A stretch of DNA of 63,718 nucleotides, taken from Rhodopseudomonas sp. BR0M22 (lineage in GTDB: Bacteria > Pseudomonadota > Alphaproteobacteria > Rhizobiales > Xanthobacteraceae). The DNA lies in NCBI RefSeq assembly GCF_010907035.1, contig NZ_QUMK01000029.1, forward strand, positions 1 to 63,718, given 5' to 3'. Under the pieces are notes generated by a model that was not told where the DNA came from, did not search any database, and saw only the letters and a program-made list of their open reading frames with translations. This document shows, one piece after another, positions 46,962 through 51,736 of this stretch (its first letter is position 1; every line of letters begins with the position of its first letter). A program made the translations under genes and the position numbers.

Positions 46962-47055
46962 CAGCTCTCCCCATGCTCGGCGAGCTTATAGCGGTAAGCC
47001 ACGGGGGTTGTCTTGCGTCACGCGCAGGGAGCAGAGTTGCGCATGCGCCGAACAG

Positions 47056-47069
47056 ATTGTATATACAAT
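47056..47069. promoter_or_regulatory. Perfect 14-bp palindrome overlapping the brnT start: probable BrnA operator
   Basis: ATTGTATATACAAT (47056-47069) is an exact palindrome in an otherwise GC-rich region and includes the first two bases of the brnT ATG. BrnT-BrnA operons are known to be autorepressed by the BrnA antitoxin binding at the promoter. The sequence also contains a TATATAC element that could be a -10 box, which would imply a near-leaderless message. Confidence 0.7.
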
Positions 47070-47322
47070 GTCGGACTTCGACCCGGCCAAGGATGCGATC
47101 AACCTCGCCAAGCACGGCATTTCGCTGGCGCGTTGGGTGGACATCGATATTCAGGTCACGTTCAAGGATAAACGCCGCGACTATGGCGAAGACCGCTATC
47201 GCGCCTACGGTTACATCGACGGCCTACCCTACTGCCTAGTGTTTGCCGACCGCAACGGAAAGGTCCGACCCATAAGTCTCCGTCGTGCCCACATGAAGGA
47301 GATCCGGCGTCATGTCACCTAG
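47068..47322 (+). CDS. brnT: BrnT ribonuclease toxin of a type II toxin-antitoxin system
   Basis: 84-residue toxin with a RelE-like fold; in Brucella BrnT is an RNase that stops translation. Motifs: FDPAKDAINLAKHGISLARW (the family N-terminus, K-H-G), YGEDRYRAYGYIDG, LVFADRNGKVRPISLRRA and a closing RRAHMKEIRRHV. The ATG at 47068 overlaps a perfect palindrome. The frame extends upstream to 47008, but that part is not family-like. The stop overlaps the brnA start by 11 bases, the usual toxin-first order for this family. Confidence 0.92.
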   Translation: MSDFDPAKDAINLAKHGISLARWVDIDIQVTFKDKRRDYGEDRYRAYGYIDGLPYCLVFADRNGKVRPISLRRAHMKEIRRHVT

Positions 47323-47587
47323 ATCGAAAGAACCGGTGTTCGACGACGACAACCCGGAATGGACTGAAGAGGACTTTGCTACGGCGCGACCGCCGGAGGA
47401 AGTCTTGCCGCCAGCAATTCTGGCCCAGTTTAAGAACACCCGTGGTCCCCAGAAGGCGCCGACCAAGGTGCCGGTGTCGATCCGGCTCAGCGCCGACGTG
47501 GTGGCGCACTACAAGGCGACCGGGCCCGGCTGGCAGTCGCGGATCGACGATACGCTACGCAAGGCCGCGAAGCTGAAGACTGGCTAG
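47312..47587 (+). CDS. brnA: BrnA antitoxin
   Basis: 91-residue antitoxin: a disordered acidic N-terminal half (VFDDDNPEWTEEDFATARPP) that wraps the toxin, and a C-terminal ribbon-helix-helix (KVPVSIRLSADVVAHYKATG, then WQSRIDDTLRKAAK) that dimerises and binds DNA. It is expected to repress its own operon through the palindrome at 47056-47069. It overlaps brnT by 11 bases, so translation is probably coupled. Confidence 0.92.
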   Translation: MSPRSKEPVFDDDNPEWTEEDFATARPPEEVLPPAILAQFKNTRGPQKAPTKVPVSIRLSADVVAHYKATGPGWQSRIDDTLRKAAKLKTG

Positions 47588-47624: not shown

Positions 47625-48476
47625 TCACCGTGGCTTCGGCGGAAGTTCGCCTGCAGCCGCTGCGATCTGCGGATCGACCAGGGTGACCTTGGCGCCCGGC
47701 TCGGCACCGAACAACCGCCGGAAATGCTCAGGCCCAAGTAGCTTGGCAGCTTCGTCGATCAGGTGCTGGTTACGTGCATTCAGCGCTTCGGCGCTGGGCT
47801 GGCCGGTGCCCGGCCATGGCTGCGCTGCAAACCGCTGCACCTCACCGCGCAGCCGCAGCAGGCTGGCGAGCTTCGCCGGCTCGGTCACCAGCAGTTCGGT
47901 CGCTCGCCTCTCGAATTCGTCCATCGCAATGCCCTCACCGCCGATCGACACCATCAGGCCGCCCGGCCGCGCCCGGGCCGTCAGTTGTGCGCCGCTGCAG
48001 GTCGACACCTTGGCGGCCCAGGCGGTTTGCTGCAGCCCGTAGGTGCCGTAGATGAAGCTCGATAACGGATAGCCGCGCGCTTTACTCACCGTCAGCGGTG
48101 GCAGGCCGCCATCCGACGTCGCGTACAGCACCTGATTGGCCAATTGGTGGCACACGCCGTCGACGCCATAGCTGTAGATCGTGCCACGAGCGCCGGGCGC
48201 GGTGTTGGAATCGGCGTTCGGCTGCACCACACATTGCGCCAGCTTGAGATTGCCGGCCTGCTGGCCAAGCGCGCCGGTCGGATTGACCGGGGTTCCACCT
48301 TGCGGATGAAACGCGCCCCAGCAAAACCAGAACGACTGGCCTGCAACGACGACATCTGCAATCGCGTTATAGGGATGAACCTGATTGTCGTAGCTGGTCA
48401 CCCAGGTGTGGTCGACCGGAGACTCGGACGACCAGGCCGGAACCGCCCAGGCATAGAGGCTGACCGAAGGTGTCAT
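47625..48476 (-). CDS. Unknown protein with a Cys-His motif, divergent from the PAAR/CHAT genes
   Basis: I do not recognise a named family. Of 283 residues, the first 155 are rich in Trp, Tyr and Gly and include VDHTWVTSYDNQ (His23), QSFWFCWGAFHPQG and a striking GVDGVCHQLANQVLY (Cys109, His110, Gln111, Asn114). A histidine before a helix-initial cysteine recalls circularly permuted papain-like (NlpC/P60, LRAT) peptidases, but this is a guess. The last 100 residues are helical and charged (LLRLRGEVQRF, LNARNQHLIDEAAKLLGPEH). There is no signal peptide. The ATG at 48476 has GGGGGGA about eight bases upstream. It shares a 148-base promoter region with the PAAR gene. Confidence 0.68.
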   Translation of the reverse strand: MTPSVSLYAWAVPAWSSESPVDHTWVTSYDNQVHPYNAIADVVVAGQSFWFCWGAFHPQGGTPVNPTGALGQQAGNLKLAQCVVQPNADSNTAPGARGTIYSYGVDGVCHQLANQVLYATSDGGLPPLTVSKARGYPLSSFIYGTYGLQQTAWAAKVSTCSGAQLTARARPGGLMVSIGGEGIAMDEFERRATELLVTEPAKLASLLRLRGEVQRFAAQPWPGTGQPSAEALNARNQHLIDEAAKLLGPEHFRRLFGAEPGAKVTLVDPQIAAAAGELPPKPR

Positions 48477-48624
48477 TTCCATTTCCCCCCAATCCATTCC
48501 CCCAAAAGAAGAAGTCTCGCGACACGTTACGGTTGTGCCGGGAGCATCATCTACCGGCCTGAGAATGTCCACGCGCAAGTCGCGGCCATTCACGGAATTT
48601 GCCAATCCCCGAAAGGAGCTGAGT

Positions 48625-49011
48625 ATGACCTTCCCGCCATCGACGACGTCCGCTCACCGTTTCAATGCCGAGCGGCGCATATGTCAGGCGCGCTGCCTGC
48701 TGGCCGTCGTTCTGGCGCTCGGAAGCGCACCTGCGCTCGCCCAGGCCCCCGCCAGCGGCGCCCCGGGCGTCGTCACCGGCGGTAGTCAGGATGTGATGGT
48801 GGGCGGCAGGCCGGCAGCCCGCGCCGGTGACGTCACAACCGACGGCGCAATCGTGGAAGGGTCCAAAAACGTCTTCATCAACGGCAAGCCGGCCGCAATC
48901 GGTGGCAGCCGCACCGGCTGCGGTGGCGTGGTGGTCGGCAGCGGCTCGGGCGTGTTCATCAACGGCAAACCGGTGGCACGCACGGGCGACTCCACCACGA
49001 ACTGCAAGTAA
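48625..49011 (+). CDS. PAAR-repeat protein with an N-terminal signal peptide
   Basis: 128 residues. A signal-like N-terminus (hydrophobic CLLAVVLALGSAPALAQA at about 24-41, Ala-x-Ala cleavage site) is followed by a compact PAAR-like domain at about 48-128. That domain has three units: SQDVMVGGRPAARAGDVTTD, SKNVFINGKPAAIGGSRTGC and SGVFINGKPVARTGDSTTNC. PAAR proteins normally cap the VgrG spike of type VI secretion systems and have no Sec signal. Here the signal peptide and the absence of T6SS genes point to a periplasmic or surface role. The ATG at 48625 follows AAAGGAGCTG. The CHAT gene starts 19 bases downstream. Confidence 0.8.
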   Translation: MTFPPSTTSAHRFNAERRICQARCLLAVVLALGSAPALAQAPASGAPGVVTGGSQDVMVGGRPAARAGDVTTDGAIVEGSKNVFINGKPAAIGGSRTGCGGVVVGSGSGVFINGKPVARTGDSTTNCK

Positions 49012-49030
49012 CAAGGTCACCCGGTCCGAC

Positions 49031-51736
49031 ATGTCAGTCCCGTCAACGCCGCGGCAAGCCGTCGGCGCCCGTTTCGCCGCACGTCTGTTGCTCGCCGCGC
49101 TCGCCATTCCGCCGCTGCTGCCGACCCTCACCACCGAAGCGCGAGCACAGCAGCGCCGGGCGCCGACGGAACGCGAGCTGGTGGCGAAGATCAACGACGC
49201 CTTTCGCTCGCTGCAGGCCGGCGATCGCGATGGAGGTCGCCTGCGGCTCACCGACGCGCTGCGCGCCGTGCGCGACAGCAACTACGATGCGCTCACGATC
49301 CGGGCTTATCTCAGCGCCGTCACTTTCTTCGAGCGCCGACGCGATACCACGACCGCATCGGAACTGTTCGCGGAGGCAGCGAACACCCGCGCCGCACGCG
49401 ACAGCAGCCCTGACGCAACGACGTTGTGGTTCGAATACGCCCGCTTCCTGGAACGCACCGTCCAGTACGAGCGCGGCATTCCGGTCGCGGTCGAGGCCAG
49501 CAAACGGATGCGTGCGGTCTATGGACCGAACAGCGCGCAGGACATCGCCGGCCGCGACATCCTCGCGACGCTGCTCACCGACAACGGCGCGGTGGCGGCC
49601 GGACTCAACCTGTCGGAAGAGACCTATCTCGGCGCGCGCAAGGCGCTCGGCGACAAGGAGCCGCTGACCTGGCGCACCGAAAACAACTACGCCGAAGCGC
49701 TGCGCATGGTCGGCCATCCGGACCTCGCCGCCAAGATCGATGCACCGCTCCTGAAGAAGCGGATCGCGCATTACGGTGTCGGCAGCATTCAGGCGCTGGT
49801 CAGCGCCAGCAACCTCGCGCTCGATCATCTGGCGATGGGCAACGAGGCCGAGACCATGCAGGCGCTCGCGCTGCAGAAGCGCTGCGCCACCGAACTCGCC
49901 GATCCCACCTCCGAACACGTCGCCCAGGCCGACACCTGGATCGCTTACGCCAAGGCGTATTTTCATCCCGAGCGCACGCTCCCCGCGCCCGAGCTGGAGG
50001 CAATGGCGCGGGTCAAGGACTGGAACGGCGCGCCGGACCTGCTGCGGATCAAATCGGCGCAGCTTGCCGCCGATCAGTACGAGCGCCGCGGCGACACGGA
50101 GCGCGCCCTGGCACTGCGGATCGATGCGTATCACCGCGCGCAGGAGACGATCGCGCGCCAGCATCCGATCACCTTCGATGCCCTCCTCGGCGTCGCCGTA
50201 ACGCGGATGAAGCGCGGCGATGCCGACGCGCTGGCGACATTCAAGGACGTCGAGCAGCAATCGTTCCGCTGGATGCTGCGCGAGGTCGGCACGGCTGGTA
50301 ACCGCTACGTCGCCGAGACGATGCGCAAGCTCGCCGACGACATCCTGTACGAATACGGCCGCTATGCGCTGATCGATCCGGCAGCGGCGGTCGCCTATGC
50401 GGACGCGGTGTCGCGCTGGAAGACCATGGAGGACGGCGAGCGCACGCTGCTGCGGCTGACGCTCGACCGGCTGCCCGACGAGCCGACGCGCGAACTGGCC
50501 CGCACGGTGCTGCGGCTGTCCGGCCAGCAGCAGGAAATGCTGTCTTCAGGCAAGCTCGACGACGATGCGCGCGACGTGCTGAAGCGATTGCAGGAGGCGC
50601 GGCAGCAGCTTGCTGCGCGCGTCGGCGCGAAGCCGCCGGCCGACGTCCAACTGCCCTCGGTCGAGGACAAGCTCACTGAAACCGATGCCCTGATCGACTT
50701 CTTCGTCAGCGACCGCGGCAGCCGCGTCAAGCCGACCGAGCCGAAGCCGGCGGCGCGGCTGCAGGCGGTGGTGCGGCGCCACGGCAAGCCGCCGCAGGTG
50801 ATCGATCTCGGCCCGCTCGACGGCTTCACTGCGCCGAGCGTCGTCGAGGCCGATCGTGCGCAGCCGTTCCGCCGGTTGTACGCCACGCTGATCGGCCCGC
50901 TGAAGCCACAGCTCGCGGGCGTCACGCGGCTGTTTCTGGTGCCGGACGCCGACCTTTACAGCCTGCCGTTTGCGATGCTGCAGGACGGCAACGGCCGCTA
51001 CCTCGACGAGATCTACGACACCCGCATCCTGACCCGCGCCGACGCGATCGTGTTCGCCGAGCAGGACGACAGGCTGATCGCGGGCAGCAAGGCGGTGCTG
51101 GTCGGCGGGCTGGACTATGCCGGCGCGGCCAGCCAGCTCCCTTCGACCAAGACTGAGATCGATCGCATCGCGCCCGATCTGCAGCGTCGGGATATCGCGC
51201 GCGTGATGTTGACCGGCGACAGCGGCGAGACCGCGATCCACGATAAGGCCGAGGGCGCGGCGCTGCTCCATCTCGCCACCCACGGCTTCTACAAGGCGGC
51301 GACCGATCGCACCGATGCGCTGTGGCGGAGCGGCATCGTCGCCGCCCGCCCCCTGCTCGACCGCCCGCCGCGGCGCGACGGCGACGATGGCGTGATCTAC
51401 GCCCGCGAATTGATGGACTGGAATCTGTCGGCCGCCGAGCTCGTCGTGCTGTCGGCCTGTCAGACTGCGCTCGGCGATCCGAGCCGGATCGGCAGCGTCC
51501 GCGGCCTGCCGACCGCGCTCGCTATCGCCGGCGCACGGCGCTCGTTGCTGACGCTGTGGGAAGTCAGCGACGCCGGCACTGCCAATTTCATGGCCCGGCT
51601 GTATCAGGTGCTCGCCGACGACAACCTCGACTACGCCTCGGCACTGCGCAAAGTCCGCATCGAGGCGATCCACGGCAAGATCAAGGCCGCCGAAGATCCG
51701 TCGGTCTGGGCGGCGTTCGTGCTGTTCGAGAACTGA
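49031..51736 (+). CDS. Exported TPR-CHAT (caspase-like) protein
   Basis: 901 residues. A signal peptide (about 15-39, LLLAALAIPPLLPTLTTEARA) is followed by a long helical, tetratricopeptide-like region (about 45-500) and a linker. A C-terminal CHAT domain (about 590-900) follows. The catalytic dyad is visible: His751 in LLHLATHGFYK and Cys810 in LVVLSACQTALG. LFLVPDADLYSLPFAML and the closing ALRKVRIEAIH with WAAFVLFEN are also typical. CHAT peptidases are caspase relatives (separase-like, and Craspase when CRISPR-linked) and usually act in the cytosol. Export is unusual. It is in an operon with the PAAR gene. Confidence 0.88.
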   Translation: MSVPSTPRQAVGARFAARLLLAALAIPPLLPTLTTEARAQQRRAPTERELVAKINDAFRSLQAGDRDGGRLRLTDALRAVRDSNYDALTIRAYLSAVTFFERRRDTTTASELFAEAANTRAARDSSPDATTLWFEYARFLERTVQYERGIPVAVEASKRMRAVYGPNSAQDIAGRDILATLLTDNGAVAAGLNLSEETYLGARKALGDKEPLTWRTENNYAEALRMVGHPDLAAKIDAPLLKKRIAHYGVGSIQALVSASNLALDHLAMGNEAETMQALALQKRCATELADPTSEHVAQADTWIAYAKAYFHPERTLPAPELEAMARVKDWNGAPDLLRIKSAQLAADQYERRGDTERALALRIDAYHRAQETIARQHPITFDALLGVAVTRMKRGDADALATFKDVEQQSFRWMLREVGTAGNRYVAETMRKLADDILYEYGRYALIDPAAAVAYADAVSRWKTMEDGERTLLRLTLDRLPDEPTRELARTVLRLSGQQQEMLSSGKLDDDARDVLKRLQEARQQLAARVGAKPPADVQLPSVEDKLTETDALIDFFVSDRGSRVKPTEPKPAARLQAVVRRHGKPPQVIDLGPLDGFTAPSVVEADRAQPFRRLYATLIGPLKPQLAGVTRLFLVPDADLYSLPFAMLQDGNGRYLDEIYDTRILTRADAIVFAEQDDRLIAGSKAVLVGGLDYAGAASQLPSTKTEIDRIAPDLQRRDIARVMLTGDSGETAIHDKAEGAALLHLATHGFYKAATDRTDALWRSGIVAARPLLDRPPRRDGDDGVIYARELMDWNLSAAELVVLSACQTALGDPSRIGSVRGLPTALAIAGARRSLLTLWEVSDAGTANFMARLYQVLADDNLDYASALRKVRIEAIHGKIKAAEDPSVWAAFVLFEN

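Follow-up and report, generated by a model that had tools for sequence, protein, structure and literature searches.

Why should a short PAAR-repeat protein, of the kind that tips the spike of the type VI secretion system (T6SS), be encoded immediately upstream of a CHAT-domain protease, and why should both proteins begin with what look like signal peptides? The question is raised by a contig of 63,718 nucleotides (NZ_QUMK01000029.1, here called the window) from the 5.29-Mb, 99.99% complete genome of Rhodopseudomonas sp. BR0M22 (labelled G000; other G and L numbers refer to the other genomes and loci that were compared). On its forward strand the gene of a 128-residue protein, the mini-PAAR (positions 48625-49011; Pfam PAAR_motif, PF05488, E value 5.6e-21), is followed by the gene of a 901-residue TPR-CHAT protein (49031-51736; Pfam CHAT, E 1.1e-54). 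Both genes are intact and only 19 bases separate the stop codon of the first from the start of the second, in agreement with the operon proposed in an initial annotation of this DNA. That annotation also included a third, divergent gene in the cluster and considered the PAAR protein as a possible delivery tip. The pair, its conserved signal-like starts and the lack of the T6SS markers that were searched for have stood up to analysis; the third member and the delivery tip have not. The account that we favor, by analogy and with about an even chance of being right, is that of an envelope protease module, in which the mini-PAAR binds the solenoid of the CHAT protein as cofactor, inhibitor or adaptor and so controls or directs the CHAT active site.

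Adjacency of homologues had been suggested as a check on the cluster, and for these two genes it is strict among close relatives. A scan with a CHAT alignment of one genome per species (84,980 species) yielded 32 loci, in 13 of which the CHAT protein is at least 74% identical (the nearest relative, from Rhodopseudomonas palustris XCP, at 93%). One of the 13, L032, begins inside the CHAT gene; in the other 12 a PAAR gene lies directly upstream in every case. The gap between the two is 3-21 bases in ten of these loci (the value of 3, at L030, depending on the choice of start) and is not given for L036 and L038, where the 5' part of the CHAT gene is damaged by Ns or a draft frame change. At 11 of these loci the pair is flanked by kdsA and pyrG; the available stretch of the twelfth, L038, stops short of pyrG. 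Ratios of non-synonymous to synonymous substitution (dN/dS) of 0.09-0.14 for CHAT (four comparisons) and 0.23-0.38 for PAAR (three comparisons, the PAAR of L027 being excluded) indicate purifying selection on both; the corresponding range for pyrG is 0.02-0.10 (four comparisons). In G319 a mini-PAAR gene (L089, 5602-6012) occupies the same kdsA-pyrG site with no adjoining CHAT gene, and that genome's sole CHAT match lies 77 kb away, a hint either that PAAR was established there earlier than CHAT or that a CHAT gene has since disappeared.

The pairing recurs with a distant lineage of CHAT proteins. When 397 genomes of the window's order were searched with the PAAR alignment, 37 matched at E 1e-5 or better; the 16 that matched at E below 1e-20 encode short PAARs whose starts are signal-peptide-like by eye. 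Larger regions were then taken around 18 PAAR matches, 14 of them from this strong set, and in three genomes of two other families (G257, G167 and G212) a CHAT gene was found directly downstream of PAAR, with a 4-base (start-dependent) overlap in G257 and gaps of 25 bases in G167 and 85 in G212. G212 has two tandem TPR-CHAT genes behind its one PAAR gene (L093, 614-5690, minus strand), of which the first has a C-terminus made unreadable by ambiguous bases. All four CHAT proteins of these three genomes match Pfam TPR and CHAT models and have signal-like starts by eye. Closely behind the CHAT gene of G257 (L091, after 8859) comes a frame that has a signal-like start and encodes the CxxCH motif of c-type cytochromes, which would suit a periplasmic setting.

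Could two such genes have come together by chance, or be hitch-hiking neighbors that share a promoter and nothing else? Each is found without the other in many genomes, and the G319 locus shows the PAAR alone at the very same site, but two CHAT lineages adjoin PAAR in the same order and on the same strand, and 0.0026 chance adjacencies would be expected over 15 genomes (the 14 of the strong set and G287) where three were observed. The estimate is rough, since it assumes one gene per kilobase and G167 and G212 belong to the same family. We regard mere neighborhood as improbable. Nor does descent from one pairing account readily for the distribution. The two PAAR-linked CHAT lineages align in a profile comparison over 724 columns (probability 99.7), and in a 38-row tree their members form two clades (support 99/99 and 96/95), each with unlinked CHAT proteins as its nearest relatives. 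An approximately unbiased (AU) test rejects a single PAAR-linked clade (p 0.000135); the pairing therefore probably arose at least twice, and one ancient shared pairing followed by many losses is disfavored. The tree comprises the window's protein, 24 of the 32 scan loci, 11 of 20 further loci, and L021, L091, L093 and L097. Partial sequences and near copies (L032, L041, L043, L044, L049, L051, L053 and L054) were left out of it, as were L143, whose protein is identical to that of L091, and the partial L151 and L155 from the careful version.

The obvious first reading of a PAAR gene followed by a protease gene is that of an ordinary T6SS, with PAAR as the spike tip, CHAT as the effector and the secretion machinery encoded elsewhere. 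The window's PAAR matches its Pfam model above the cut-off, matches the phrog_281 PAAR family (E 8.4e-17) and is distantly matched to the solved PAAR structures 4jiw and 4jiv. Yet the initial annotation's finding of no T6SS gene in the window extends to the whole nearly complete genome, in which searches for VipB, TssK and Phage_base_V all came back empty, and the NCBIfam T6SS PAAR model scores 56.9 bits on the window protein against a cut-off of 124. The spike protein, Phage_base_V, is missing from all seven PAAR+CHAT genomes (G000, G397, G236, G379, G257, G167 and the 88% complete G212), and TssK from the four of them that were searched (G000 and three of the Tardiphaga type). These absences make a T6SS tip role of the window's PAAR very unlikely, and on the strength of the genome searches we have set it aside, together with the delivery tip that had been suggested for this protein; the signal-like starts of both proteins and the loss of a His-rich loop, described below, speak against it as well. 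As a complete account of the locus, the ordinary T6SS comes last among those that we have weighed, with hardly any weight left to it. PAAR motifs with a transmembrane helix are described in PMC3482391 as strictly T6SS-linked; the mini-PAAR family does not fit the strict linkage as stated there.

The same searches bear on a quite different connection with type VI secretion. Phage_base_V is present in six of 12 other mini-PAAR genomes, against none of the seven with the pair (Fisher p 0.044, kinship being ignored; the 12 include G282, whose contig ends behind PAAR, and G287, with a shorter match). TssK and Phage_base_V occur together in two of three genomes that have a related CHAT without a PAAR, and both are missing from the third. 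The known partner of PAAR is VgrG, and the seven genomes with the pair offer no Phage_base_V protein of their own as a target; a periplasmic mini-PAAR might mimic the tip and capture or mispair with the VgrG of an attacker, whose spike or cargo CHAT would cut. Incoming spikes, however, already bear a PAAR, and neither protein matches a PADLOC defense model (the window's PAAR, CHAT and divergently encoded protein are all unmatched; the one match, on the CHAT of L097, is to a generic TPR model). A bait of this sort seems to us unlikely. A related speculation, and a long shot, is that the spike-tip fold has been domesticated for envelope immunity, the exported mini-PAAR recognizing foreign VgrG and triggering a periplasmic solenoid-CHAT protease of the executioner type.

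What, then, is the mini-PAAR? A long signal-like N-terminus is followed by three PAAR repeats of ~27 residues. The putative signal peptide spans 39 residues (48625-48741, plus strand; ending ...LLAVVLALGSAPALA-Q) and that of the CHAT protein is equally long (49031-49147, plus strand; ending ...TTEARA-Q); in each, a charged start is joined by a hydrophobic core and a site of the AxA type. The sites were placed by eye; a crude hydropathy check agrees with signal-like starts, though it fails to set every control apart. The apparent Sec signals noted in the initial annotation recur on these terms in the orthologues: those of the CHAT protein have like signals, and those of the PAAR have shorter, classical-looking ones, as in the Tardiphaga-type PAARs, which are 104 residues long. 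We infer from these sequence features that both proteins are exported by the general secretory (Sec) pathway. In the last 84 residues of the window's mini-PAAR there are no histidines and two cysteines, Cys99 and Cys127, which stand at equivalent positions of repeats 2 and 3 and are invariant in all 16 aligned PAARs (an alignment in which the G397 row represents the Tardiphaga type in place of G236). Histidine is lacking from this part in 12 of the 16 rows and does not exceed two in the others; the L062 row has a third cysteine at the equivalent place of repeat 1. Spike-tip PAARs carry a set of metal-binding His/Cys ligands at the tip. The window protein lacks the histidines of such a set and keeps two invariant cysteines. 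Set against 4jiw and 4jiv, with which it shares PAAR repeats, it places Cys99 on the cysteine of the conserved CGG segment but lacks the His-rich loop, has a second conserved cysteine one repeat on, starts with a signal-like segment, and comes from a genome with no detectable spike protein.

The CHAT protein is easier to place. The catalytic dyad proposed initially, His751 and Cys810, is invariant in alignments of seven and of 27 proteins, the window's included (27/27 in the larger); the predicted catalytic codons lie on the plus strand at 51281-51283 (49031 + 3 x 750) and 51458-51460 (49031 + 3 x 809). The corresponding HGL and SACN segments of the second CHAT lineage are invariant in four rows. 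AlphaFold, run on the 27-row alignment, returned a model with a mean predicted local distance difference test score of 84.9 and a predicted template-modelling score of 0.81, in which residues 1-42 are of low confidence (as expected of a signal peptide, although that is no proof of one), 43-531 form an alpha-solenoid and about 544-901 the CHAT part. The helical-repeat nature of the N-terminal domain is thus predicted by the model; Pfam TPR_12 falls below its cut-off there (E 3.1e-5) and NCBIfam FxSxx_TPR, at 78.8 bits, stays under its own of 300. The best match in the PDB is Csx29 (8eey_B; Foldseek E 4.1e-11), the protease of the type III-E CRISPR system (Craspase), which has the same alpha-solenoid, CHAT domain and His-Cys dyad, but the template-modelling (TM) score is 0.42/0.50 and the identity 12%, and the window's protein differs in its signal-like start and PAAR partner. 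No Cas7-11 (gRAMP) or CRISPR array was recognized in the genes examined next to the locus, no search dedicated to them having been run. Human separase (9hn5_A, E 1.5e-10) likewise joins a solenoid to a caspase-like protease, with a TM-score of 0.36/0.26; it is controlled by a partner, securin, but is eukaryotic, cytosolic or nuclear, and larger. DdvA (8rw5, 8rot; E 1.2e-9), whose structure we take to hold a periplasmic TPR/CHAT part, differs in being a membrane-anchored anti-sigma factor, has a low TM-score (0.24-0.25) and has no PAAR partner that we know of. On the strength of the model, the CHAT protein is most likely a separase/Csx29-like cysteine protease, with His751-Cys810 as its predicted dyad, mounted on an alpha-solenoid.

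The resemblance to Csx29 and separase, both of which work with regulatory partners, is what leads us, by analogy, to put a regulator or adaptor role of the mini-PAAR first (Csx29 works with encoded partners, according to PMC10028731). In the envelope module that we propose, Sec would export both proteins to the envelope or periplasm. The mini-PAAR would be a three-repeat PAAR that has departed from the type VI spike and lost its His-rich loop, and Cys99 and Cys127, one repeat apart, would be placed for a disulfide or for metal binding in the oxidizing periplasm. It would bind the alpha-solenoid and control or direct the active site, and the CHAT domain would cut an envelope substrate. That substrate might be the mini-PAAR itself, a reading that we rank second and hold to be a less probable, if serious, competitor: a cut, in the N-terminal tail for example, would release or remove an envelope signal. 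The neighbor of a TPR-CHAT gene can indeed be its substrate, as Csx30 is cleaved by Csx29 (PMC10028731), and PAAR evolves faster than CHAT. On the other hand, PAAR in its mature form consists largely of three short repeats and lacks an obvious cleavable linker, and PAARs from loci with no CHAT retain the same form. After these two we place the chance neighbors, then the anti-T6SS bait and finally the ordinary T6SS.

Several observations weigh against the envelope module with a PAAR regulator. The remaining 19 of the 32 CHAT loci (30-51% identical) have no PAAR in the available stretch, and at E 1e-20 no such CHAT turns up in the four other genomes of the window's own genus that are listed in one family sample, so that the pair is patchy and dispensable. 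Of the 16 strong-PAAR genomes, five (G000 and G236 among them) have an adjoining CHAT and one (G282) has a contig that ends just behind PAAR; ten of the 15 that can be judged have no CHAT in the available region. Each protein can evidently do without the other in some genomes. The frequency of PAAR without CHAT suggests that the mini-PAAR has its own function in the envelope and that CHAT was recruited to it on two occasions. As for the individual steps, the hydropathy values of some controls without a Sec signal are also fairly high (1.9 for PyrG; 2.54 for a VOC protein whose start is uncertain), the matches to Csx29, separase and DdvA are at the level of architecture only, at 12-15% identity, and the CHAT tree has long branches and was subjected to the AU test after a quick version of it had been inspected.

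If PAARs with signal-like starts, from genomes in which no spike was detected, have indeed been joined on two occasions to exported separase-like proteases, then both folds have been put to a new use, and the pair offers a two-gene system in culturable genera. Within the literature searched (most subscription papers lay outside its scope) we found no account of PAAR together with TPR-CHAT, of a periplasmic, secreted CHAT protease, of a CHAT domain in Rhodopseudomonas palustris, or of a Sec-dependent, T6SS-independent PAAR; in PMC12419801, PAAR, CHAT, signal peptides and the periplasm are mentioned merely in passing. In the window's genome a single PAAR locus was detected, and the CHAT gene beside it is the only one above the family cut-off (another match, elsewhere, falls below it); the PAAR-linked CHAT is likewise the sole one over the cut-off in G236, G397, G379 and G257.

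The mini-PAAR family itself appears to belong to the window's order: in class-wide (385 genomes) and phylum-wide (398 genomes) samples all matches better than E 1e-19 came from it, and of 15 loci with weaker matches from outside the order, scanned by regular expression, the 11 with a readable PAAR segment all look canonical. The PAAR tree is unresolved. An origin of these PAARs in mobile elements was considered and rejected, two of them being unmatched in plasmids and CHAT being absent from the best 80 of 168 viral PAAR loci; of the PAARs at these 80, 12 have at most one histidine in the matched part and none looks, by eye, like an exported PAAR of three repeats. L077-L080, L084 and L088 encode further PAAR variants, which also have signal-like starts but whose repeats follow another pattern (such as SVMIGGRPAYRVSDLAGCPP and SVLIEGQPAKRAGDIPG), and no CHAT was found near the three of them read in larger regions (L104-L106). 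Of mini-PAARs without CHAT in the available stretch, those at L101 and L102 (two genomes of one genus, the L102 contig ending behind PAAR) adjoin a groES-like gene and those at L094 and L096 (two genomes of another genus) an aminotransferase-like gene; no shared neighbor was found.

The divergent gene (47625-48476, minus strand) encodes a Cys-His protein of 283 residues with nothing above cut-off in Pfam. Its start at the ATG at 48476 agrees with its orthologues and gives the 148-base region between the divergent genes that had been noted initially. Its inclusion in a three-gene cluster did not survive comparison: it is present in four of the 12 loci that keep the pair and absent from eight. 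Among 297 genomes searched in the order, three have the gene, the window's being one, and the two homologues from other families show neither PAAR nor CHAT in the stretches covered: that of G087 (58% identical) adjoins a murG-like gene, with PAAR and CHAT unmatched in 18 kb, and that at L007 stands behind a fumarase-like gene in a stretch of 3.2 kb. We therefore regard it as a neighbor and not as part of the module. Its AlphaFold model is too poor for use (mean pLDDT 37.7) and no relatives were confirmed in viral contigs; a conserved His24 ahead of Cys110 is reminiscent of circularly permuted papain-like enzymes. A BrnT/BrnA toxin-antitoxin pair (47008-47587, plus strand; Pfam 2.4e-17 and 1.1e-23) adjoins the Cys-His gene, in a region of 60.0% G+C against 65.6% for the window. 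In L024 and L038 it occupies the equivalent position, and in L032 and L036 it lies on the opposite side of CHAT, and so seems to be mobile around this site.

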